From contig PMSI01000003.1 of assembly GCA_003168375.1 (NCBI GenBank), positions 310,001-374,000 on the forward strand: 64,000 nucleotides of DNA, in the 5' to 3' direction. The position numbers were made by a program, and so were the translations under genes. The stretch is from Vulcanimicrobiota bacterium. Lineage in GTDB: Bacteria; Vulcanimicrobiota; Vulcanimicrobiia; Vulcanimicrobiales; Vulcanimicrobiaceae. Shown piece after piece: positions 4,709-20,282 of this stretch. Numbering within the stretch: position 1 is the first letter of the stretch; every line of letters starts with the position of its first letter. Below the pieces are notes generated by a model. It saw only the letters and a program-made list of their open reading frames with translations. It searched no databases and was not told the DNA's origin.

Positions 4709-6871
4709 ATGCGCATGACCGTTCGTCCGATCCACCGTCTGCTCCCGATCCTAGCGGCGGCGATCCTCGCCGCGTGCAGCGGTGGCGGCGGCGGCAGCAA
4801 AGTGACGCCGTCGACGCCGACCCCGACGCCGACCGCGACGCCGACGACCACGCCGGGCTGCAAGAGCCTCGCTCCGCAAACCCTGCCCGGGAGCAGCGTC
4901 TACACGCTGACCTCGAACCCGTCGGGTCTGGCGGTGCAGCGCATCGATCCGACGGTGACGACGCAGACCTGCTCGTACCTCACCGGGACGACGACGACCA
5001 CCGACACGCCTCAGAACGGGCCGCACCCGTGGAACTACGTGTTCGTACCGGCCGCGGCCAGCCCGTACGTGGTCAGCGTCGCTCAGCAGTTCAACGGAAA
5101 CCACACGCTGTTCTACAACCAGGCGGGCGACTCGACCGGCGCGATCCTGCTGAGTTCACTGCAGTCGATCCGCCGCAGCAGCACTGCCGCGCGCAGCGTG
5201 AACGAGGTGCAGCGCGGGATCCGGCGCTTCAGCGGCCCGGGCATCGACGCGACGACCCTGCTGGTGCGCTATCGCGGCGCGGCCGCGCAGATGCGCACGC
5301 GCTCGCAGCAAATCGCCGCGTCCGAAGGGACGATCAACGGCTCCGAGATCACGACCGTCGGCGGCACGTACGAGCGCTTCGTCCGCGTCCCGGCCGCAAC
5401 CGATGCAACCTCCTTCGCCGCCAAGCTGCGCACGCAAAGCGACGTCGCGGACGTCTTTCCGGTGCACAACCGCATCCCGCTCGGCCGCCCGGCTACCACC
5501 GTCAACGACCTGCACGGGAACAACCACGACCAGTGGTACCTCTTCGCCGACGGTTTCCCGAACGCGTGGTCGTACAACCTGGGCGCAAGCGCGAAGATCG
5601 CGATCATCGACACGGGCGTCGATCTGACCAATACCGACCTTTCGGCGAAGATCGACTTCTCGAAGGGGTATCAGACGACCACCGCTCAGGACACCAACGG
5701 GCACGGCACGAACGTCTCGGGAATCGCGGGCTCGCTGACCAACAACACGACCGGCTTCGCCGGCGCCGGGTACAGCGTCCGGCTGCTCGCGTACAACATT
5801 TTCCCCGACGCGACCGCCAGCAGCCACGACCAGACGGCGTCGGTCGCGGACGAAGTCTCGGCGATCAACGATGCCGTGGCAAAGGGCACCGACGTGATCA
5901 GCCTCAGCCTCGGCGCAGCGCAGGACTACGGAACGGACTTCAACGCGGCCGGGTTCGATCAGGGCGAGCACGACGCGATCGAGGCCGCGATCACCGGTGG
6001 TGTCGTCGTCGTCGCGGCCGCCGGCAACGATGCCGACGGAGGCGAGTCGGGGACGCCGCATCTCGTGCTCGATTATCCGGCCGCGTACGACAACGTGATC
6101 TCGGTCGGTGCCACCTCCCTGCATGACACGGCCAACCCGGGCCAGTTCACGGGCGCGACCGAGTACGTCGCGCCGTACTCGCAGTACGGCCCCGGACTCG
6201 GCGTCGTCGCGCCGGGCGGTGATCCCGGCAGCAACGACGTGAACCCGCTGCACTGGATCTGGAACTACTCGACCTCGACGGCGAACTTCGCGACCGACAA
6301 GTGCACGACTCCGAGCCCGCCGACATCCTGCAGCGCGTTCTTCGCCGGCACCTCGCAGGCGACGCCGCAGGTCAGCGCCGCAGCCGCGCTGCTGATCTCG
6401 GTCGGCGGTCACCACTCGCTCACCCCGGCGCGCGTCGCGCAGCTGATCGACGACACCGCCGACAACATCGGCGATCCGCACCAGGGCCACGGCCGCCTCA
6501 ACGTGTACAAGGCGATCGCGCTTCTGTTCAGCGACACCGGAGCGTATAGCGGGCCCGTCGCGCAGAAGACCAGCCCGACGCAGACGGTCGCGTTCGCGTA
6601 CAGCAACTCCGGGTCGAACAAGCCGGTGATCCTCGACGCGAACTATCCCGGCGGGGTTCCGGTCGATGCGAGCGGCAACTTCCGGATCGGCGACGTTCCG
6701 GCGGCGACCGGGAACTACCGTGTCGGCGTCTGGTACGACGCGAACGGCGACGGGACGATCAACGCGGGCGATCAGTTCGGCGGCGCTGCCGTCACCTGCA
6801 ACTCCGCATCGAAATGCACGATCGGCACGATCACGATGACGACGGTGGCCGCAGGGTTCACGCTACCGTAG
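4709..6871 (+). CDS. Subtilisin-like serine protease (S8), lipoprotein
   Basis: A 720-residue exported protease. The signal peptide ends in the lipobox LAAC (Cys23), followed by a glycine stretch and a TPTPT-rich linker. A propeptide-like region leads to the S8 catalytic domain with an intact triad: Asp301 (IIDTGVD), His332 (NGHGTN) and Ser549 (GTSQATPQ). Two segments unlike the core subtilisins, with paired cysteines, lie before the Ser. The C-terminal 90 residues contain WYDANGDGTINAGDQFGG, a dockerin/EF-hand-like calcium loop. It probably digests protein outside the cell while tethered to the membrane. A truncated paralogue lies at 9356-10581. Confidence 0.92.
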   Translation: MRMTVRPIHRLLPILAAAILAACSGGGGGSKVTPSTPTPTPTATPTTTPGCKSLAPQTLPGSSVYTLTSNPSGLAVQRIDPTVTTQTCSYLTGTTTTTDTPQNGPHPWNYVFVPAAASPYVVSVAQQFNGNHTLFYNQAGDSTGAILLSSLQSIRRSSTAARSVNEVQRGIRRFSGPGIDATTLLVRYRGAAAQMRTRSQQIAASEGTINGSEITTVGGTYERFVRVPAATDATSFAAKLRTQSDVADVFPVHNRIPLGRPATTVNDLHGNNHDQWYLFADGFPNAWSYNLGASAKIAIIDTGVDLTNTDLSAKIDFSKGYQTTTAQDTNGHGTNVSGIAGSLTNNTTGFAGAGYSVRLLAYNIFPDATASSHDQTASVADEVSAINDAVAKGTDVISLSLGAAQDYGTDFNAAGFDQGEHDAIEAAITGGVVVVAAAGNDADGGESGTPHLVLDYPAAYDNVISVGATSLHDTANPGQFTGATEYVAPYSQYGPGLGVVAPGGDPGSNDVNPLHWIWNYSTSTANFATDKCTTPSPPTSCSAFFAGTSQATPQVSAAAALLISVGGHHSLTPARVAQLIDDTADNIGDPHQGHGRLNVYKAIALLFSDTGAYSGPVAQKTSPTQTVAFAYSNSGSNKPVILDANYPGGVPVDASGNFRIGDVPAATGNYRVGVWYDANGDGTINAGDQFGGAAVTCNSASKCTIGTITMTTVAAGFTLP

Positions 6872-9355: not shown

Positions 9356-10581
9356 CGTTCTTTTTCCGTGCAGAGCGTGGCCGCGACCGTCGTGGGCGCG
9401 GTCGACCTTGGGACGACGAACGGGGCGATGCTGCGTGCGGTGACGCTCGCACCCGGGACCGATGCCGCCGCGCAAGCTGCGTTACTGCGGCAGAATCCTG
9501 CGGTAGCCGATGTCCAGCCGGTGCACTATCGCTCGCTCGCGAGCGATGGCGTCGCGAACGACCAGTATCTCGACAACGTCGACCAGTGGTACCTGTACAA
9601 GACGAACGTCGATTCCGCAGCGTGGGCACTGAGCCACGGCTCGGCGCCCGTCTCGGTCGCCGTGATCGACACCGGCGTCGACGAGACGAACCCCGACTTC
9701 GTCTTCGACGTGAAGGAGCGCATCGTCGGCGGCGTCAAGGCGACCGGCAACGGCGTCGTTCAGGACACGAACGGTCATGGTACCAATACTTCGGGACTCG
9801 CCACGGCGGCGACGAACAACTCCTATGGGTTCGCCGGCGTCGGATACGCGACGCATCTGCAGGCGTACGACATCTTCCCGCCCGCGACGGCTGCCAGCGA
9901 CTGTACGGCCGCCGACACCGCCGACGAGGCCGCGGCGATCCGCGATGCAGTTGCGAACGGAGCGTCGGTAATCAGCCTGAGTCTCGGCTCACCGCAGAGC
10001 AAAGGCTCGGACGCCGGGGAGCAGGCCGCGGTCGCGTTCGCGCTCGCCGGCGGCGTCGCCGTCGTCGCGGCGGCCGGCAACGAGTTCGGGAAATCGGCCG
10101 ACGGCAACCAGCCGGACTTTCCGGCAGCATATCCCGGCGTGATCGCGGTCGGCGCATCCGGGGTGACGAATCTCGTCGCAAACACCTACGCCTCGATCAC
10201 GGCCGAGACGGTCGCGTCCTACTCGAATTCCGGCCCGACGCTGGTCGCGCCCGGGGGCGACGCGACCTCAACCAGCGATAACGATTTCCCGCACTGGATC
10301 GAAGGCTATTCGACCACGACCGCCGCGTTCGCCGCGGACCGCTGCACCAACGCAGGCGGCGTGTGCCGCGTGCTGTTCAACGGAACCTCGCAAGCGACGC
10401 CGCAGGTCGCCGGGACGATCACGCTGATGGAGGCCTACCACGGTGGCCCGCGTTCGCTCGCCCGGCGACGGTGCTCGCGCTCCTGCAATCAAACGCCGAT
10501 GCGCTGCCCGGGATCTCAGCCACGCGTCAGGGCGCGGGCCGGCTCAACGCCGGGAACGCGGACGCAGCGGCGCACCCGTAG
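9356..10581 (+). pseudogene. Subtilisin-like protease, 5'-truncated and frameshifted paralogue
   Basis: The frame opens only after a TGA at 9353 and begins inside the propeptide region, so signal peptide and lipobox are absent. It reads through Asp (VIDTGVD), His (NGHGTN) and Ser (NGTSQATPQ) motifs almost identical to those of the protease at 4709-6871. At about 10461-10463 one base seems to be missing from a run of C: restoring it joins the frame to the normal end (ATVLALLQSNADALPG ... GAGRLNAGNA) with a TAG at 10579-10581. Without it, translation runs on into the neighbouring minus-strand gene. It is either a decayed copy or, for the frameshift alone, an assembly error. Confidence 0.8.
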
Positions 10582-10589
10582 CGCGCAGC

Positions 10590-11630
10590 TTAGCCCGTCC
10601 GGCCGTACCCGATCGCGTCGAGCTGGCGCTGCGCTGCCAGGCCGTCGGCGAAGGTCGGCACCCCCGGCGTACCGAGGTCGATCCGTTCCGCGAACGCGTC
10701 GAGCAGCGGCAGGAAGAACGGCAGGTTGCCGTGGACGACGGCGTGCTTTGCATGCGGCGAGGGTGCGATCTCGAGCTCGTCCTGCTCGTCGTCCGCGATC
10801 GTGAACACGCTGAGGTCGCCGAAGAACGTTCCGTTCGCGACCACGCTGCGCGTCTCGCCGTGCACCGCGACGGTCGTCGACTCGACCACGGTCGTCGCGT
10901 CCGCGCTGCAACGCGCGACCAGCCCGAGGCCGTGATCGGCGTAGGCGAACGCGCCGTCGGCGACGTCGCTCTCGAACGTCTCGCCGCCGGGACCGGTGCG
11001 GCGTGGGTTCGCGGTGCGAAGCATCCCCAGGGTCTCACGGGCGGGTCGCCCGGCGAGGTAGTTCGCCAGGTCGAAGAAGTGCGGCATCACGGCGTTCGCG
11101 AGCCCGCCGCCCTTTTCGCGCGAGAACCACCACGACGCGCCGCGGTTGGTGTTGCGTTCGAGCAGCTCGCGGCTCAGGCGCGCGACCTCGATCTCGCGGA
11201 GCGCGCCCAGATGACCGTTGTCGATCAGTTCCTTGATCGCGATGATCGCCGGGACGTAGCGGAACTCGAACGCGAGCGCGGCGGCGGTTCCGGCGCGTTC
11301 GCTCGCCGCGAGCATCTCGTCGGCCTCGGCGACGGTCAGCGCGAACGGCTTCTCGCACAGTACGTGCTTGCCGGCCGCCAGCGCGGCGAGCACCGAGCGG
11401 TGATGGTCGAACGGTGGCGAGGCGACGGAGACGACGTCGAGCTCGACGCCGGCCAGCATCTCCTCGGTCGAGCGGAACGCGTGCGCGATCTTGCGTTCGC
11501 GCGCAACGCGCGCGGCGCTCGACGGCGAGGCGATCGCGACCACCTCGAAGCGCGGATGGAGCGCGTAGGCCGGGGCGTGGACGGCGCCGCCGAACCCTGA
11601 CCCCACGATCCCGACTCGTAATTTGCTCAC
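10590..11630 (-). CDS. Gfo/Idh/MocA-family oxidoreductase
   Basis: A 346-residue NAD(P)-dependent oxidoreductase. The N-terminal Rossmann fold starts with LRVGIVGSGFGG, and the family's catalytic-lysine motif appears as CEKPF. The family oxidises or reduces sugars, inositols and related substrates, and some members reduce imines or biliverdin. GTG at 11630 is the start: AGGAGG lies 4 bases before it and it overlaps the aminotransferase stop by 4 bases. It is the last gene of the LuxE-LuxC-aminotransferase operon, so it probably acts on a product of those enzymes. Its end meets the broken protease gene tail to tail with an 8-base gap. Confidence 0.85.
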   Translation of the reverse strand: MSKLRVGIVGSGFGGAVHAPAYALHPRFEVVAIASPSSAARVARERKIAHAFRSTEEMLAGVELDVVSVASPPFDHHRSVLAALAAGKHVLCEKPFALTVAEADEMLAASERAGTAAALAFEFRYVPAIIAIKELIDNGHLGALREIEVARLSRELLERNTNRGASWWFSREKGGGLANAVMPHFFDLANYLAGRPARETLGMLRTANPRRTGPGGETFESDVADGAFAYADHGLGLVARCSADATTVVESTTVAVHGETRSVVANGTFFGDLSVFTIADDEQDELEIAPSPHAKHAVVHGNLPFFLPLLDAFAERIDLGTPGVPTFADGLAAQRQLDAIGYGRTG

Positions 11631-12943
11631 GTTGCCTCCTCCATCTCGCGCGCCGCTTCCTCGAACAGCTCGAGCGCGCGCGCGAGTTGCTCGTCGCCGA
11701 TCGTTGGCGGCGGCGCGATGGTGATCGACGTCCCGGTCGGCCCCGATTGCAGCAGGATGACGCCCTTCGCGAGCCCGCGCACGACGACGCGGTTCGCGAT
11801 TGCCGCCCCGGCGAATTCCACCGCCCACAGGAAACCGCGGCCGCGAACGTCCCGCACCGCCGAGAGGCTACGCAGCCGGCGGAGCCGCTCCCCCAGCGCC
11901 GGCTCGCGTGCGCGTACGAGCCCGGGAACGTCGAGCCGCGCGATCTCGTCGAGGTTGGCGAGCGCCGCCGCACACGCGAGCGGGTTGCCGAGGAACGTCG
12001 AGGTGTGCAACGCCTCGCCGGTGCTGGCCGGCCACGCCTCCATGACGCGCGCGGAGCCGATCGTCGCCGCGAGCGGAACGCCGCCGCCGAGCGCCTTGCC
12101 GACGCACAGTAAATCGGGGACGACGTCTTCGCGCTGACAGGCAAACATCGTGCCGGTGCGTCCGAAGCCGGTGTAGATCTCGTCCAGGATCATCAGCACG
12201 CCGCGCGCGTAGCAGAGCTCGCGCAGCGCGCGCAGGAAACCGTCGGGCGGAACGATCACGCCGCCACGCCCCTGAATCGGTTCGAGCAGAACGGCGCCGA
12301 CATCCGGATCGCGGTCGAGCGCGTCGCGCACGTCACCGATCGCGGATTCGACCGCCGCGTCCGAACCTGGATACGGCAGAAAGGTCGCGCGGTCGGCGAC
12401 CAGCGGCGCGAACGGGGTGCGGAACTTCTCGATTCCGGCGACCTCGAGCGCGCCGAGCGAGAGCCCGTGGTACGCGCCGTGATAGGCGATGGTGCGCGGC
12501 TTTCCGGTTGCCAGCAGCGCGGTCTTCAGCGCGAACTCGATCGCCTCCGCGCCCGAGGTCGAGAGGTAGGTCTTCATCAAATCGCCGGGCGCGAGCTCGG
12601 CGAGTCGCATCAGCAGCCGCGTTCGCGCTTCGGTCGGATGAACGTCGCCCATCCCGTGGATCAGACGCTGTGCCTGCGCGGCGATCGCGTCCGCGACGTG
12701 CGGGTTCGTATGACCGGTTGCGGCGACGCCGAACGCCGAGGTCAGGTCGAGATACCGGTTGCCGTCGACGTCGGTCACCGTCGCGCCCGACGCGCTCGCC
12801 CAGAACACCGGGTAATCGTCGCCGAGGTAGGTGACCCCGGGCGCCTCGTACGACGCGAGCTCGGCAGCGAGCGCGCGCGAGAACGGCCCGGGGATCGCGG
12901 TAACGATCGACTCGAGGTCGCCGTTATCCATTCGCTTCGTCAC
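11627..12943 (-). CDS. Class III (PLP-dependent) aminotransferase
   Basis: A fold-type I, class III aminotransferase of 438 residues. Visible motifs are DVDGNRYLDLTSAFGV, the YHGAYHGLSLGAL loop, LMILDEIYTGFGRTG, and LCVGKALGGG with the Schiff-base lysine. This class moves amino groups between an amino acid and an aldehyde or ketone, including terminal aldehydes. It follows a LuxC-type aldehyde-forming reductase and precedes an oxidoreductase, which suggests amination of the aldehyde made upstream. The start is GTG at 12943 or ATG at 12931; neither has a strong ribosome site. A copy of the dispersed repeat sits in the 39-base gap before it. Confidence 0.88.
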   Translation of the reverse strand: MTKRMDNGDLESIVTAIPGPFSRALAAELASYEAPGVTYLGDDYPVFWASASGATVTDVDGNRYLDLTSAFGVAATGHTNPHVADAIAAQAQRLIHGMGDVHPTEARTRLLMRLAELAPGDLMKTYLSTSGAEAIEFALKTALLATGKPRTIAYHGAYHGLSLGALEVAGIEKFRTPFAPLVADRATFLPYPGSDAAVESAIGDVRDALDRDPDVGAVLLEPIQGRGGVIVPPDGFLRALRELCYARGVLMILDEIYTGFGRTGTMFACQREDVVPDLLCVGKALGGGVPLAATIGSARVMEAWPASTGEALHTSTFLGNPLACAAALANLDEIARLDVPGLVRAREPALGERLRRLRSLSAVRDVRGRGFLWAVEFAGAAIANRVVVRGLAKGVILLQSGPTGTSITIAPPPTIGDEQLARALELFEEAAREMEEAT

Positions 12944-12950
12944 CCTGGCG

Positions 12951-12971
12951 CTTCGACAGGCTCAGCGTGAC
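12951..12971. repeat. Dispersed repeat, copy 1 (between luxC-like and aminotransferase genes)
   Basis: Core CTTCGACAGGCTCAG followed by CGTGAC. One of seven copies in the window. It fills most of the only gap in the operon. Confidence 0.75.
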
Positions 12972-12982
12972 ACGCCGAAGGG

Positions 12983-14218
12983 TCATTCGCGATCGATCCA
13001 GCGGATGAAGTCGGCGACGCGCGGTGCGCCGCCGTGATGGCCGCCGATCGGCGGCGTCTGCAGCGTGCCGAACGGCGCGACGCGGACGGCACCGATCTGC
13101 TCGGCGAGCGCGAGCGCGAGGGCGTCGGCCGCGGTGACCCCGAGCGCCTGCACCGGGAGGTGCTGGGCAGCCACGTAGCGCGCGATCGCGTCGTCTCCGG
13201 TGACGGAGATCAACGGGACGACGCGCGGCAGAAAAGGCGGCGGCTCACCGGCCGGCGAGTCGACGACGAGCGTCACGTCGGCGGCACGCAGCACGTCGCC
13301 GTGTCCGCCCGCCGCGCGAAACGCGGCGATTCCGCGATAGGCGGCGACCGCGGCGGTGCGCTGTGGGGAACGCGCGCCGCCCGGGAACTCGAGCGCGACG
13401 CGCTCGCAGGCTGCCCCAAGCGTCGCGCCGACGCGGCGCAGTGCGTCACCGTCCGCTTCGACGAACAGCGCGTGCAGCGAGAGACACCCTTCGCCGTCGT
13501 AGAGCAGCGCGTCGCGCGCGACGCGCTCCGCGCGATCGTCATCGAACTCGGCGACGTCGTCCCGCGTCAGCCGTCCGATGCTCGCTCGGTGTCCGAACGC
13601 GACGAAACGTGCCTCGGTCGCGCAGCGGGCGCGAATCGCGTACAGCGCTTCGTCGCCTCCGAACGCCACCACGACGTCGGCGGCGCCGAGGACCGCATCC
13701 TCCGCCGGATCGTCGCCGCCGGTCCAGGTCCTTGCCCGTGCCGCGCCGGCGAACGCCGGATGCTCCTGGGCCAGCGTCGCGAAGAATTCAGCGACCAGCA
13801 CGTCGCTGCGGTCCTTGACCACGACGTCGCACTTCGCGCACAACGCGAAGATCGCCGGGACGAGCGCGACGCCGATCGTCGTATCGCTCGAGACGATGAC
13901 GACGCGATCGACGCCGCGCGCCCACGCCGCCGGCGCACCGCGGCGTTCGGCGACACGGTCGAGCGCGTCGACGCTGCCGAGCTCCGACGCGATGGCGGAC
14001 TCGAGCGCCGCGCGGGTCGCGCCGCCGAAGAGGCGGTCCAGTGCGTAGTCGACGACCGGCGTGCTGTAGCCGAGGCGCGCTGCGATTGCGGCGGTCGCGC
14101 GCAGGCGTGGTGCGTAGTCGGCGTCGCACCAACGCTTCGCCGCGTCCGCGATGCACGCGACGATACGCTTCGCGGGCAGCGTGCGCAGCGCGCCCGAGCT
14201 GCCCCGCGCCTCAGGCAC
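12983..14218 (-). CDS. LuxC-like acyl-CoA/acyl-protein reductase
   Basis: About 411 residues, matching the LuxC family (an aldehyde-dehydrogenase relative). The nucleophile is the Cys of GEGCLSLHALFVE (Cys245 from this start). The cofactor-binding half carries VVIVSSDTTIGVALVPAIFA and VVVAFGGDEALYAI. In luminous bacteria LuxC reduces a fatty acyl group handed over by LuxE to an aldehyde using NADPH. The gene overlaps the end of the LuxE-like gene, and GTG at 14218 gives the shortest overlap; an ATG at 14242 is the other option. There are no luciferase genes, so the aldehyde must serve another purpose. Confidence 0.82.
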   Translation of the reverse strand: MPEARGSSGALRTLPAKRIVACIADAAKRWCDADYAPRLRATAAIAARLGYSTPVVDYALDRLFGGATRAALESAIASELGSVDALDRVAERRGAPAAWARGVDRVVIVSSDTTIGVALVPAIFALCAKCDVVVKDRSDVLVAEFFATLAQEHPAFAGAARARTWTGGDDPAEDAVLGAADVVVAFGGDEALYAIRARCATEARFVAFGHRASIGRLTRDDVAEFDDDRAERVARDALLYDGEGCLSLHALFVEADGDALRRVGATLGAACERVALEFPGGARSPQRTAAVAAYRGIAAFRAAGGHGDVLRAADVTLVVDSPAGEPPPFLPRVVPLISVTGDDAIARYVAAQHLPVQALGVTAADALALALAEQIGAVRVAPFGTLQTPPIGGHHGGAPRVADFIRWIDRE

Positions 14219-15338
14219 GGCGCACCAGCAGCGTCTCCGCATCCAGCGAGCAGCCGCGCAGCTCGGCGCCGTGCTCGCGTCCGAGCAGCACGAGCCCAGC
14301 CTGCCCTGCGCCGAGCCCGTCCTGAGCCTGTCGAAGGGAAGGGACGAGCGCGCCGAGGTCTTCGGTCTCGATCGCGATCACCGAGCCCCGGTTCGCCAAG
14401 TCGACGTGGCGGATCGCGCCGACCACGCCGTTCGCAACGGCGCGCCCATCGCCGTCGACGACGATCGCGCGCAGCCATGGTGGCGCGACCTTGACCCGCG
14501 GCTCGATCCGGCTGCGCGACGCGAAGGAGTCGTAGTACTGCGAGGACAGCTCGGTCATCCCGTACTCCGCGACGATCGCGTCGACCGCGACGCCGAGCCG
14601 GTCGGACGCGGCGGCGTAGAGCGCGGTGCGTTCGACGACGCGCGTGCGCCCTTTGAAGCCGCCGGTCTCCATGATGCGCGATCCGCCGGGGAGCGGGAGC
14701 CGCAGGCCGCGCGCCGTGAGCGCGTCGAGGAGCGCGACCAGCGCGAAGGCCGTCGTCGCGAGGCACACGGCGACGCCGTCGGCGTTCGCCCGCGCGACGT
14801 CGCGCACCAGTCCGTCGAGGTCGAGCGCGTCCCCGTGAAGGTACCATCCGCCCGCGCCGTCGCCGCGCTCTTGCGCGATCGTCGCCAGCATGTAGCCGAG
14901 CGAGCTGTGCGGGTTTTGCCGCGGATCCGGGACGAGGTTCAGATACCGTAGGCGCGCGCCGTCGGGGAGCAGCATGCGATCGAACGACGCGAGCACCGCG
15001 GCTTCGTAGAGCTGCGTCGTCGGCAATTCGTGCCGGCCGCCGCGCCCGCTCGTCGTGCCGCTCGTCTCGAACGCCGCGGCGGTCTCGGCCGGAGGGAACG
15101 TCGCGAGGCGCGCTTCTTTGAACGCGGCAGCGGGGACGGCGGGGATCTCGGTGATCCGCTCGGGGAGCCGCGCAGCGTCAAAACCCGCTGACCGCGCGAA
15201 CGCGGCGTAGGGTGCGTTGTGCGCGATCTGGTAGGCGAACAGGTCGCGCGCGAGCGCGAGGAACGCCGGGTCGTCGAGCTCGTAGTCGCCGATCGCGCGC
15301 AGCAGGCGCGCGTCGAGGGCGGCCACCTCGGCGCTCAC
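14211..15338 (-). CDS. LuxE-like acyl-protein synthetase
   Basis: A 375-residue member of the LuxE family (related to adenylate-forming enzymes). It shows ETSGTTSG, the phosphate-binding loop, YGMTELSSQYYD, and near the end GREHGAELRGCSLDAETLL, whose Cys is the expected acyl acceptor. LuxE activates a carboxylic acid with ATP, binds it as a thioester and passes it to LuxC. A repeat copy is inserted in frame near the 3' end, adding about a dozen residues (LRQAQDG...) before the conserved C-terminal motif. The GTG start lies 16 bases after the upstream secreted-protein gene. Confidence 0.85.
   Translation of the reverse strand: MSAEVAALDARLLRAIGDYELDDPAFLALARDLFAYQIAHNAPYAAFARSAGFDAARLPERITEIPAVPAAAFKEARLATFPPAETAAAFETSGTTSGRGGRHELPTTQLYEAAVLASFDRMLLPDGARLRYLNLVPDPRQNPHSSLGYMLATIAQERGDGAGGWYLHGDALDLDGLVRDVARANADGVAVCLATTAFALVALLDALTARGLRLPLPGGSRIMETGGFKGRTRVVERTALYAAASDRLGVAVDAIVAEYGMTELSSQYYDSFASRSRIEPRVKVAPPWLRAIVVDGDGRAVANGVVGAIRHVDLANRGSVIAIETEDLGALVPSLRQAQDGLGAGQAGLVLLGREHGAELRGCSLDAETLLVRRA
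14321..14338. repeat. Dispersed repeat, copy 2 (in frame inside the luxE-like gene)
   Basis: Reads CCTGAGCCTGTCGAAGGG on the plus strand, the reverse complement of the core. It is translated as part of the LuxE-like protein without breaking the frame, in a loop just ahead of the C-terminal acyl-accepting motif. Confidence 0.75.
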
Positions 15339-15354
15339 GCCGCGAGGATCACGG

Positions 15355-15924
15355 TCAGTAGCCGCCGACGCGCTCTTTCTTGCGATGGGCGGCGGTGAAC
15401 GGCGTGCCCTTGTCCTTCGGGTCGGCCGTCGTCAGCAGGCCGACCATGTCGGAGAAGTTCTCCGCGTAGCCGCTCAGCGTGACGACGGTCTTCTTCGCGT
15501 CGGTCGCGGTCAGCTTGAACAGCCGTCCGTCGAACGTCCCGGTGAACGGCACCTTCTCGTTGTTGTTGCGCACCCACGTCCCCGTCAGCGCGTCCGCTTT
15601 CTGGGTGACGTAGAAGTGCGAGTACAGGGTCTTCCCGTTCCCGCTGAGGGGCTGGACCTGCACCTCCCACACGCCGTCCATCGTCGAGAACTGCGGTGGC
15701 TCGGGGGTGTCGGAGGCGCTTGGCTCCGGGTTGGGGCTCGACGCGCGGCGACCGCGGCGGCCCGACGGGGCCGGGCTCGCGCCGGCGCCCGGTGCGGCGG
15801 ACGGCGTCGCGGCGGGGGCAGGCGTCCCCGGGGCGGACTGGCCGATCGGAGCGACCTGCGCGACGGCTGTACCGCCGAGGGCAAGGGCGGCGAGCCCGGC
15901 AAGCGCGATCTGACGAAGGTTCAA
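15355..15924 (-). CDS. Secreted protein of unknown function
   Basis: A 189-residue protein with a Sec signal peptide (MNLRQIALAGLAALALGG, cleavage near AVAQ). A Pro/Ala/Ser linker and a basic RRGRR patch follow. The C-terminal 110 residues form a compact domain with MDGVWEVQVQPL, THFYVTQ-like and LTGTWVR segments, resembling the beta-rich 'does it lower or raise the value of a substrate' proteins that lack a named family. The start is TTG at 15924, supported by GAGG 5 bases upstream. It is first in the minus-strand operon leading to the LuxE-like gene, but a functional link is not evident. Confidence 0.7.
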   Translation of the reverse strand: MNLRQIALAGLAALALGGTAVAQVAPIGQSAPGTPAPAATPSAAPGAGASPAPSGRRGRRASSPNPEPSASDTPEPPQFSTMDGVWEVQVQPLSGNGKTLYSHFYVTQKADALTGTWVRNNNEKVPFTGTFDGRLFKLTATDAKKTVVTLSGYAENFSDMVGLLTTADPKDKGTPFTAAHRKKERVGGY

Positions 15925-16167: not shown

Positions 16168-18270
16168 TTGGCTTATCGACGCGCCGCAATCATGTCCTGT
16201 CTCGCCCTGGGCCTGGCCGGATGCCAAGGCGGTGGGGCGAACCTACCGTCACTCAACACGGGCGTGGCGCCCCCTCCGTCAGTGACGCAAAGCGGTGCCG
16301 TTACCCCGGCCGGCGGATCGGTCACCACGACCCTCGGAACGCAAACGGTCGTCATCACTGCGCCCGCAGGAGCGCTGAGCGGCCCGGGCACGCTCTCCGT
16401 CACGGTGTTCGGGAACAACGCGGCACCCAAGACGTTACAGTCCGCCGGCCGCAAGGTGCAGAAGATCGGCGCGAGCGCCGTCCTGGTCGTCGAGTTCACC
16501 GTCACGCTCACCGGCGCGACGCTGCTCAAGCCGCTGCAAGCTTCGCTGACGACGGGGCCCGCAGGGAGCGGTTCGATCTTCCGGCTCGCCGGACTCGGAA
16601 CCGCGTTCGACGACGTCGACACGGTGACGTTCGCCGCCGGCAAAGCCTCGACCGACGGGAACGTTCTGTACTCACGGATGTCGCTCGCGAGCGGCACCTA
16701 CTACGCATTCTACGTCGAAGCGTCGGTGGACGCCAGTGCGGCCCCGACGCCGGTCGTCACGGTCCAAACGCCGACCCTTCCGGTCGGCATGTTGAGCACG
16801 TCGCAGTTCGCGGCGACCGAGACGGAGCCGAACGGGTTCCCGTACCTCGATACGAACTTCACCTTCACGCTCGACAACCCGTCGCTCGGCTCGATCACGT
16901 CGGCAGGCGCGTTTACGGCGGGTCCCGTCGACGGTGCCGGCAACGTCACCGCGACCGACACGACCGCGGGCCGCGGCAACCCCAACGGGAAGAGTCAAGT
17001 CACCGTGAGCTCGCAGCGGCCGTCGAACGTCGGCGACAGCTTCAGCTTCACCGGGAAGCTCACGACGACGACGCAGCTCGTCAACAGCAACCCCACCCTG
17101 GTGCAGACCGACAGCGCGAACGTCGCGCTCACGACGACCACGTCGCCCTCGGCGCCGCCGATCGTCATAACCACGCCGGCGCCCGTCGTCGGAACGAACG
17201 TGCAGACCCTCGAGACGGATACCTATCCGTTGGAGACGGTGAGCACCAACACCGCCACGCTGTACGGATACTCCACCGGTCCCTCGGCGAGTTTGCCGGC
17301 GAACGTCGTCCCCGGCTCGTTCCTCGTCATCTCGAACCTGGCGACCGATTCGAACGGCGTCCAGTACGCGACGCAGTACGATCCGTCGGGTGTGAGCGGA
17401 AACGGCATCCTCGACGTGCTGCCGGAGAAGACCGGCGCGTTCGGACCGAACAACGCGGTCCTCCAGTACGATGAGACCGATCAAGCCAACTTCGCGCGGC
17501 ATCGCGTGGTCGGCGCGACCGGCTCGTACGTCGAGACCGGCACCGACGCCTTCCACGACGTCCAGACGATCACCGTGAACTCCGACCTGAGCGCGTCCTA
17601 CGACGCGCGGCAGTACAGCGGGTTCCGCTTCACGATGACGGCACCGACGGGAAGCCCGGCAAAGATCACGTTCCGCGTGTTCAATAGCGCGGGGACGAAC
17701 ATCCAGTCGTTCAGCCTGACGCCGTGGTTCCCGGCCGGGGTGACGCAGCCGTCGACCGAGACGGACGTCGACAACGGTCCGACCACCTATCCGGCTTCGT
17801 GCAGCGTCCCCGCGAAGTACGGGACGAGCGGCAACCAGATCGTGCAGACGATCACCCGCGTCGATCCCGCGCTCGGAAACTCCGAGCTGATGACGACGAC
17901 GACCTACGTCGCGCCGCGCGTCGGCCCGGTCTGCATCCAGCTCGCCGACACGGTGAAGACGTTCTACGACTACACCTTGCAGAACGGATTCATCGTCCTC
18001 GTCGGCAGCGGCACGACCAACATCCAGACGACGACGCTGAACGAAACGCTGACCCTGCAGTCGGCGAGCGTCGAAGGCGGGACGACGACTTTGTCGTCGG
18101 GCCGGTCGACCTCGGGAGCCCGCACGGTCTCGTCGGCTTCGGCGATGAACTTCGCCCCCGTCGCGTTCGCGCGCGCTCGCTTCGAGCACGCGGTCCGCGA
18201 GAAGACGAACTTCATGCGCAGACAGACCTTCAACCACAACTTCCTCAGCCAGGGGGTGAAGACGCTGTGA
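16168..18270 (+). CDS. Large lipoprotein of unknown function
   Basis: A 700-residue lipoprotein: lipobox LAGC at Cys19, then a Pro/Ser linker. The body is rich in Thr, Ser, Val and Gly with repeated beta-strand patterns, including AGGSVTTTLGTQTVVITAPAGALSGPGTLSV, which resembles ZU5/Ig-like beta-sandwich modules. No catalytic motif is visible. It starts with TTG at 16168 (GAGG 10 bases upstream); ATG at 16192 would also keep the lipobox. Its stop overlaps the GTG of the sedolisin gene by 4 bases, so the two are co-translated, perhaps as a surface protein and the protease that matures or accompanies it. Confidence 0.75.
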   Translation: MAYRRAAIMSCLALGLAGCQGGGANLPSLNTGVAPPPSVTQSGAVTPAGGSVTTTLGTQTVVITAPAGALSGPGTLSVTVFGNNAAPKTLQSAGRKVQKIGASAVLVVEFTVTLTGATLLKPLQASLTTGPAGSGSIFRLAGLGTAFDDVDTVTFAAGKASTDGNVLYSRMSLASGTYYAFYVEASVDASAAPTPVVTVQTPTLPVGMLSTSQFAATETEPNGFPYLDTNFTFTLDNPSLGSITSAGAFTAGPVDGAGNVTATDTTAGRGNPNGKSQVTVSSQRPSNVGDSFSFTGKLTTTTQLVNSNPTLVQTDSANVALTTTTSPSAPPIVITTPAPVVGTNVQTLETDTYPLETVSTNTATLYGYSTGPSASLPANVVPGSFLVISNLATDSNGVQYATQYDPSGVSGNGILDVLPEKTGAFGPNNAVLQYDETDQANFARHRVVGATGSYVETGTDAFHDVQTITVNSDLSASYDARQYSGFRFTMTAPTGSPAKITFRVFNSAGTNIQSFSLTPWFPAGVTQPSTETDVDNGPTTYPASCSVPAKYGTSGNQIVQTITRVDPALGNSELMTTTTYVAPRVGPVCIQLADTVKTFYDYTLQNGFIVLVGSGTTNIQTTTLNETLTLQSASVEGGTTTLSSGRSTSGARTVSSASAMNFAPVAFARARFEHAVREKTNFMRRQTFNHNFLSQGVKTL

Positions 18271-20282
18271 GAACGGCACGAATCCTCGCCGCGGTAGCAG
18301 CCGCGGCACTCCTCGCAGCGTGCGGCGGCGGCGGCGGCAGTAGCAAACCTGCCAACGTCGTTCCCGGGCAGCCGACGAATCAGGGCGCGGCAACGCCCTC
18401 GTCGACCTCGTTCAAGTACACGAGCAACGCGCTCACGGGGACACCATCCTCCGGCGCGGTGCAGATCGGCACGATGAAGGTCGACGTGCAGATGAACCTG
18501 CCGAACGTCGCCGCGCTCCACCAGTACGCGGTATCGGTCGGCGATCCGACCAGCGGGTTGTACCGACACTTCCTGACCCCCGAAGAGATCGGCTCGCGGT
18601 TCGGGGCATCAGACGCGGACTACAACGCGGCGATCGCGTACTTCACCGCCGCCGGCCTGCAGGTCACCGGCTGGAAGCAGAAGTCGATGCTGCGCGTCGT
18701 CGGACCGCAGGCCAACATCGAGAGCGCGTTCGGAACGACGTTTGCCCTCTACCATCTGCCGACCGGCGATGCGTACGGGCCGGCGACGACGCCGCACTTC
18801 TCCAAGCCGCTCGCCGTGCACTCGGTCACGCACCTCGTGTACAGTCCGAAGTGGACGAAGCGCAACTCGATCGCGATCCCCCCGCACGGCACGACGCCGG
18901 CGTTCAACTTCGGCCTCCCGCCGCAGCAGATCGCCGCCGCGTTCGACTACACCGGCGCGTACCAAGCCGGGTTCACCGGGACGGGGATCAACATCGGGAT
19001 CATCGGGACGGGTCCGATCAGCAGCGCCGACTACGCGGCGATGAAGACCCAGTTCGGGCTGAGCTGGATCGACGGTTTGGGCGCCTCGCACAACACCGCC
19101 AACACGATCACGCAAGTGAACGTCCAGCCGGCCGCCGGCATCAACGGGGGCACCCCCGCCACGCCGCCGCCGGTGACCGGGCCGTGCAACACCGCGCTGC
19201 CGGCTTGCAATCCGGAAGACGGCGAAGCGCAGATCGATACCCAGCAGACCGCCGCGCTCGCACCGACCGCGAACGTGCTGTTCTACCTCGCGTACGTCCC
19301 GCACGAGACGTTCGGCACGTCGCACGACTTCGGCCCCGAAGAGGGGATCAGCGAGGTCAACGATGAGGTCCAGCAGGCGATCAACGACAACATGGCCGAC
19401 ATCCTGTCGCTGAGCTACGGGATCGCCGAGCAGTACAGCGACTACACGCTCGCCGACGGTACGACCTTCGATCCCAACGGAACGGAGCCGGTACAGTTCG
19501 CGATGCTCCAGGCCGAAGGGATCGCGGTCTTCGTCTCGTCCGGCGATGCGGGCGCGCAAGGCTGCTCGCGACCGTTCGACGGGGTCGCGCCGGGTGTGGC
19601 GGGACCGAACCAGCCCTGTGTGAGCGCCCCCGCGGTCGACGCCAACGTCACCAGCGTCGGCGGGATCACGGCGCCGATCGACGAGGCCGGGAAGAAGATC
19701 GGTCCCTACACGACGTGGGGCGTCCAGACCGAGCACGGCTTCGGTGCGACAGGCGGCGGGCTCTCTGTCGCCGTCCCCAAGCCGGCCTACCAGACGGGAC
19801 CGGGGATCACCGGGACCAAGCGCAACCAGCCCGACGCTTCGCTCGACGCCGATCCCTTTACCGGCGTCGCGGTTGCGTTCAACATCGGGTTCTCCGGCGG
19901 CGGTTTCGGCGGTTTCGGGGGCACCAGCGTTGCCGCACCGGAGATGGCTGCGATGTGGGCGCTCGTACTCGACGCGTGCCGGCAGACCGCTGCCTGCACC
20001 GCCAAGGGGTCCGGCGCGAAGCCGTACCGCATGGGCAACGCCGCACCCGCGATGTACGCGATCTACAACAGCGCGACGCTCTACCCGGCGACGTTCCTCG
20101 ATATCGTCGACGGCAACAACGGCGTGCGCCCGTGCAGCGTGAACCCAGGCCAGGTCGGACCCTGTCCGAACCCCTCGCCCACGATCCAGCCGGGCTTCAA
20201 CGCCACGTCCGGATACGACCTCACGACCGGGATCGGCGTGCCGTTCGGACGGCACCTGATCAAGTCGGTGGTCGGCGTCTAG
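18267..20282 (+). CDS. Sedolisin-type (S53) serine-carboxyl protease, lipoprotein
   Basis: A 671-residue secreted protease of the sedolisin/kumamolisin family, usually active at low pH. The signal peptide ends at LAAC (Cys19). A pro-kumamolisin activation domain follows (VSVGDPTSGLYRHFLTPEEIGSRFG). The catalytic set is complete: Glu320 and Asp324 (GEAQIDTQ), oxyanion Asp427 (SSGDAG) and Ser554 (GTSVAAPE). C-terminal DIVDGNNG and TGIGVPFG are where the family binds calcium. With the S8 protease at 4709 it shows strong investment in extracellular proteolysis. It is coupled to the upstream lipoprotein gene by a GTGA overlap. Confidence 0.92.
   Translation: MRTARILAAVAAAALLAACGGGGGSSKPANVVPGQPTNQGAATPSSTSFKYTSNALTGTPSSGAVQIGTMKVDVQMNLPNVAALHQYAVSVGDPTSGLYRHFLTPEEIGSRFGASDADYNAAIAYFTAAGLQVTGWKQKSMLRVVGPQANIESAFGTTFALYHLPTGDAYGPATTPHFSKPLAVHSVTHLVYSPKWTKRNSIAIPPHGTTPAFNFGLPPQQIAAAFDYTGAYQAGFTGTGINIGIIGTGPISSADYAAMKTQFGLSWIDGLGASHNTANTITQVNVQPAAGINGGTPATPPPVTGPCNTALPACNPEDGEAQIDTQQTAALAPTANVLFYLAYVPHETFGTSHDFGPEEGISEVNDEVQQAINDNMADILSLSYGIAEQYSDYTLADGTTFDPNGTEPVQFAMLQAEGIAVFVSSGDAGAQGCSRPFDGVAPGVAGPNQPCVSAPAVDANVTSVGGITAPIDEAGKKIGPYTTWGVQTEHGFGATGGGLSVAVPKPAYQTGPGITGTKRNQPDASLDADPFTGVAVAFNIGFSGGGFGGFGGTSVAAPEMAAMWALVLDACRQTAACTAKGSGAKPYRMGNAAPAMYAIYNSATLYPATFLDIVDGNNGVRPCSVNPGQVGPCPNPSPTIQPGFNATSGYDLTTGIGVPFGRHLIKSVVGV

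Follow-up and report, generated by a model that had tools for sequence, protein, structure and literature searches.

We analysed a four-gene operon in a 64,000-nucleotide stretch of DNA, hereafter the window (positions 310,001 to 374,000 of contig PMSI01000003.1, assembly GCA_003168375.1), which belongs to a 4.43-Mb genome of the class Eremiobacteria. As the initial annotation had stated, the four genes lie on one strand, here the minus strand, and overlap or nearly touch each other. They encode, in order, a LuxE-like acid-adenylating, thioester-forming enzyme (15338-14211), a LuxC-like acyl-thioester reductase (14242-12983), a class III pyridoxal phosphate (PLP)-dependent aminotransferase (12943-11627) and a Gfo/Idh/MocA oxidoreductase (11630-10590). 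LuxE and LuxC overlap by 32 nucleotides or less, the real start of LuxC possibly lies downstream of 14242, and 39 nucleotides separate LuxC from the aminotransferase. For the Gfo/Idh protein, the GTG at 11630 fits as a start, giving a 4-nucleotide overlap with the aminotransferase stop codon, while the start at 11828 in the open reading frame listing is too far upstream. The catalytic residues attributed to the four proteins were all found, namely, Cys362 in LuxE, Cys253 in LuxC, Lys283 in the aminotransferase and Lys94 of the EKPF motif in Gfo/Idh; Cys253 is the residue previously numbered Cys245, a different start having been chosen. Neither luxAB nor luxD is present in the operon, and the source genome holds no second copy of LuxE or LuxC.

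LuxE matched Pfam family PF04443 with 41.5 bits (gathering cut-off, 24.9). In an alignment of 32 sequences, Cys362 (codon 14252-14250) was invariant, as were S92, G93 and T95 of the ATP-binding SGTT motif, T94 being nearly so. The AlphaFold model of LuxE (pLDDT 89) had PaaK-type ligases, ClxA and the phenazine protein EhpF as its nearest folds, and it resembles aromatic-acid adenylators of the PaaK/EhpF type. The C-terminal arm bearing Cys362 was modelled with low confidence, as expected for a mobile arm. The photobacterial LuxE (7xc6_E) was not among the fold matches listed for the model, which is no evidence of a different fold. Glu257, within EYGM, was invariant in Eremiobacteria. No relative of LuxE was found in the viral contigs searched.

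LuxC matched PF05893 with 129 bits (cut-off, 21), and its Cys253 (codon 13486-13484) was likewise invariant among 32 aligned sequences. The best structural match of the LuxC model was the luminous LuxC 7xc6_A, with a TM score of 0.82. A role in luminescence was nevertheless rejected, since both proteins scored far under the equivalog cut-offs of the luminescence models, LuxE reaching 31.8 bits against a cut-off of 550 for the fatty-acid ligase (NF052244) and LuxC 33.2 bits against 750 for the fatty-acyl reductase (NF052251).

The aminotransferase is a clear member of PF00202 (Aminotran_3; 331 bits, cut-off 30.5), and its PLP-binding Lys283 (codon 12097-12095) was found in every homolog from LuxE-LuxC-aminotransferase loci that covered this column. 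Its active site departs from that of the canonical class III γ-aminobutyrate/ornithine transaminases, as it does not have their Glu/Arg switch for amino-acid donors: the switch glutamate (QGEGG) is replaced by Arg226 (codon 12268-12266) in 51 of 51 such sequences, and the arginine that holds the amino-acid carboxylate is also replaced, the window protein having Thr408. At these two positions, the group stands apart from the remaining class III aminotransferases encoded by these genomes. The Gfo/Idh protein (GFO_IDH_MocA, 97 bits against a cut-off of 24) retains Lys94 (codon 11351-11349). Members of this family usually have a catalytic aspartate in a DxGxH-type motif; all 20 homologs aligned here carried alanine at the position of that residue.

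Conservation of the operon and its surroundings

LuxE was detected in 52 of the 55 Eremiobacteria genomes searched for it and LuxC in 108 of 117, and the named loci retrieved with the window LuxC came nearly all from metagenome-assembled genomes of Candidatus Eremiobacterota. The order LuxE-LuxC-aminotransferase-Gfo/Idh was kept in families f1 and f2. In family f3, LuxE, LuxC and the aminotransferase stayed together in 11/11 loci, where Gfo/Idh was not found, and these three genes, hereafter the trio, therefore form the core, Gfo/Idh being an accessory that follows the aminotransferase in f1 and f2 loci. The trio aminotransferases formed a single clade (support 100/99) in which the deepest branching lies between f3 and f1/f2, as vertical inheritance would predict. 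The trio is thus a vertically inherited set of the class, and its class-wide conservation rules out a chance arrangement. Two checks proposed in the initial annotation, whether the genes stay together in relatives and how the aminotransferase branches, hence came out in favour of LuxE-LuxC-aminotransferase, and both the anatomy of these genes and their conservation lend good support to its acid-to-aldehyde-to-amine reading. Gfo/Idh, which it placed before or after these steps, is outside the core, as it stayed with the trio only in f1/f2.

Upstream of the operon, the conserved neighbours were, as named from their sequences, an O-acetylhomoserine sulfhydrylase, a CoA-binding-domain protein and leuCD; those downstream were peptidase genes and cinA. 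In f3, a major facilitator superfamily transporter and a 2-oxoacid dehydrogenase operon, named in the same way, accompany the trio. No glycosyltransferase, nucleotide-sugar or lipid gene accompanied it in the loci read. In the window, a small proline-rich predicted secreted protein (15355-15924, minus strand) is encoded 16 nucleotides upstream of LuxE and has homologs in 14 loci, but it is probably outside the pathway because in other genera further genes separate it from LuxE. Subtilisin- or sedolisin-like secreted peptidase genes lie around the operon on the plus strand (4709-6871, 9368-10804 and 17724-20282), and the same kinds of gene flank the operons of relatives. The one at 9368-10804, subtilisin-like, is convergent with the operon and becomes low in complexity after about 10440, suggesting a frameshift or decay.

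LuxE relatives behind thiamin pyrophosphate riboswitches

The closest relatives of LuxE that we found were on plasmid records and were 35-39% identical to it along most of its sequence. According to the annotated records, they belong to operons of LuxE, LuxC and a short-chain dehydrogenase/reductase (SDR) in Pantoea, Azospirillum, Priestia and Lactiplantibacillus. In some of them, an NMT1-type ABC transporter comes after these genes or a nucleobase permease before them. These transporters led us to predict a link to thiamin, and thiamin pyrophosphate (TPP) riboswitches were then found upstream of LuxE in nine of nine plasmid loci (L133-L138 and L256-L258). In L133, L134, L137, L138, L257 and L258, the riboswitch scored at or above the gathering score and was located immediately 5' of LuxE. 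In L136, it precedes the permease gene that comes before LuxE, and in L256, a pair of riboswitches lies about 2 kb upstream of LuxE. The match in the Priestia locus was below the gathering score (49 bits, E 3.6e-8). The TPP-linked LuxE-LuxC pairs thus probably reduce a small heteroaromatic acid, and the plasmid operons probably salvage an oxidised thiamin precursor, converting an acid to an alcohol. For the LuxE of the window, these relatives suggest small heteroaromatic rather than fatty acids as substrates. The residue equivalent to Glu257 is Met in the TPP-linked proteins, and Glu257 is, judging from the alignment, a possible candidate for a guanine-recognising residue. We found no paper on the plasmid operons, TPP riboswitches and LuxE appearing together only incidentally, and none linking LuxC with hydroxymethylpyrimidine.

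The queuosine pathway and a proposed role for the trio

Given the TPP-linked relatives, we searched the core pathways for a cofactor-like acid with an aminomethyl product. The guess that this product was 7-aminomethyl-7-deazaguanine (preQ1), of the queuosine pathway, was put to the test by family searches for the que genes in ten near-complete genomes drawn from across the class. QueF, the enzyme that normally yields preQ1, was then found to be absent from 10/10 genomes, and QueA, whose substrate is preQ1-tRNA, occurred in 10/10 (in genome G000, with 401 bits against a cut-off of 324). Nor was a genuine queuosine QueC found in any of the ten genomes: the weak QueC matches of G000 turned out to be MnmA and NadE when checked against NCBIfam, and most of the other weak matches had the same lengths and profile ranges as these. 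QueE-like genes were nearly universal in the class, QueD adjoined QueE in 14/14 loci read, and in G000 both QueD and QueA scored above their equivalog cut-offs. In outgroup families of the phylum, QueC (f9, f11 and f14) and QueF (f9) were encoded beside QueE, all over cut-off, and f9 had no LuxC. Among the variants listed in a survey of 2,228 genomes, none has QueD/QueE while lacking both QueC and QueF (PMC6593275). Wherever an f3 genome had QueE and LuxE on the same contig (7/7), the two were 14-26 kb apart, and 2-oxoacid dehydrogenase genes adjoin the trio in f3 and queDE in f1. No Tgt was detected when the retrieved loci, which span a small part of the genomes, were scanned for motifs.

A QueC-like gene was observed in genome G047 (L174:6500-11100), where its neighbours are small genes and one for a predicted KAP-type P-loop ATPase; by its gene content, this locus may be akin to a Qat-like defence locus.

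Since the tested genomes are without QueC and QueF, and the class has a conserved trio for converting an acid to an amine, the trio probably replaces the missing step. We thus propose that LuxE-LuxC-aminotransferase is a non-orthologous replacement for QueC and QueF, leading from 7-carboxy-7-deazaguanine (CDG) to preQ1. To this reading as a whole, including CDG as the substrate, an aldehyde as the intermediate and an amino donor for the last step, we assign a probability of roughly 0.6. QueD and QueE make CDG, whose carboxylate LuxE would adenylate with ATP and then hold as a thioester on Cys362. Through Cys253, LuxC would reduce the CDG-thioester with NAD(P)H to 7-formyl-7-deazaguanine, which the PLP aminotransferase would turn into preQ1 by means of Lys283. 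Tgt would then insert preQ1 in tRNA, where QueA would elaborate it. Such a route would bypass the nitrile preQ0. With odds a little better than even, we take it to be a class-wide, nitrile-free preQ1 route with a rewired aminotransferase active site, within a wider group of LuxE-LuxC pairs for heteroaromatic cofactor acids that includes the TPP-regulated pair for a thiamin precursor. We found no paper describing the trio and none mentioning 7-formyl-7-deazaguanine.

Several observations weigh against preQ1 synthesis by the trio. In f1, the que genes and the trio are in separate regions and share no operon. The proximity of QueE to LuxE in f3 amounts to a single observation owing to shared ancestry. 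In genus g44 and its neighbours, LuxC, the aminotransferase and Gfo/Idh are together, and LuxE was not within the sequence read. A few genomes of the class have QueE and no LuxC, possibly because of incomplete assembly, and the QueE of G000, although its best matches are QueE models, is below their equivalog cut-offs. The distance between trio and que genes in f1 and the position of LuxE in g44, where it is not adjacent to the other genes, would also fit a trio that makes another core amine from another acid, with preQ1 formed from CDG by an unrecognised enzyme or imported. We consider this doubtful, though deserving of serious attention, as it needs a second unrecognised activity, or QueD and QueE retained for nothing, and leaves a conserved set of exactly fitting chemistry unused for the gap.

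The remaining explanations are considerably less probable. The initial annotation had the operon making an amine or amino-lipid, and a long-chain product from fatty acids would agree with the fatty-acid reduction for which LuxE and LuxC are named and with 7xc6_A as best structural match of LuxC. An amino-lipid is unlikely, however, given the scores of both proteins far under the fatty-acid equivalog cut-offs, the TPP riboswitches at the closest LuxE relatives found, the lack of any linked lipid gene, and the polar lipids of the cultured relative Vulcanimicrobium alpinus, which include no identified amino-lipid, most of them having been left unidentified (PMC9758169). The amine part of that claim is retained, the best-fitting product being the heteroaromatic amine preQ1. 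The same plasmid relatives, with their riboswitches and NMT1-type or nucleobase transporters, would suit a trio that makes or salvages a thiamin-pyrimidine precursor, converting a carboxy-pyrimidine to an aminomethyl-pyrimidine. This is quite improbable, as ThiC was present in 10/10 genomes of the class, the sole TPP-riboswitch match of each genome was just 5' of ThiC and not at the trio, and no TPP riboswitch was found in the window or in the f3 loci scanned. A surface-sugar pathway had also been suggested; as an amino-sugar route, it would have a uronic-type acid reduced and aminated, with Gfo/Idh acting on the ring. Sugars are frequent substrates of Gfo/Idh proteins, and LuxE and LuxC occur in flagellin glycosylation islands of enterobacteria (PMC4875605). 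This reading is unsupported because no sugar or glycosyltransferase gene was linked to the trio at any locus and because the set occurs throughout the class instead of varying within it; with Gfo/Idh absent in f3 and devoid of the usual catalytic aspartate, we regard it as the most improbable of all.

Replacement of ArgB, ArgC and ArgD in an arginine route was rejected for most of the class, as ArgC was over cut-off in 6/8 genomes; in G000, an aminotransferase gene is located near ArgC. The near-complete f3 genomes G041 and G047, unlike f1/f2, had no ArgC over cut-off; they may have lost arginine synthesis or carry it out in an altered form.

Synthesis of preQ1 by the trio, if true, would constitute a second solution to preQ1 formation, across a class of soil bacteria. 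Queuosine is regarded as the product of one fixed pathway (QueD, QueE, QueC, QueF, Tgt and QueA), with preQ0 as an obligatory nitrile intermediate. The automatic annotation of such genomes as queuosine salvagers would have to be corrected, and LuxE/LuxC pairs labelled in databases as enzymes of fatty acids or bioluminescence would gain an assigned substrate.

Comparison with known systems

The luciferase-associated fatty-acid reductase LuxC-LuxE (7xc6) has the LuxC fold and the catalytic cysteine in common with the operon, and its LuxE shares with the window protein the family match and the C-terminal acyl-Cys in GCS. The operon differs in being without luxAB and luxD and in its low scores against the luminescence models, and a fatty acyl substrate is unlikely. 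Other classes of the phylum (L094-L102) have a different conserved arrangement, in which a GNAT-like protein and LuxE are encoded with a LuxC of about 870-950 amino acids that includes a fused AMP-binding, PaaK-like domain; it has no aminotransferase and is not informative for the trio. The best sequence match of the trio aminotransferase in the PDB was the Escherichia coli putrescine aminotransferase YgjG, with which it shares the fold and the PLP lysine, whereas Arg226 and Thr408 take the places of the switch glutamate and of the usual arginine of YgjG and other class III transaminases.

EhpF (3hgv/3hgu/3l2k) is a short enzyme that adenylates a heteroaromatic carboxylate and has a fold similar to that of the LuxE model, although the two are only about 15% identical and EhpF belongs to a natural-product pathway. 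EhpF has been proposed to feed a reductase, and to our knowledge its pathway has no aminotransferase step. The plasmid operons under TPP riboswitches contain the nearest LuxE found, followed by LuxC as in the trio, but they belong to the thiamin regulon and carry a dehydrogenase, with an alcohol as the expected product, where the trio has an aminotransferase. With QueC and QueF, the trio would share both its proposed start, CDG, and its proposed end, preQ1, the same carboxylate being activated with ATP and then reduced. The two sets consist of unrelated families, and where QueC and QueF proceed through an amide and a nitrile, which is then reduced, the trio would form an aldehyde and transaminate it.

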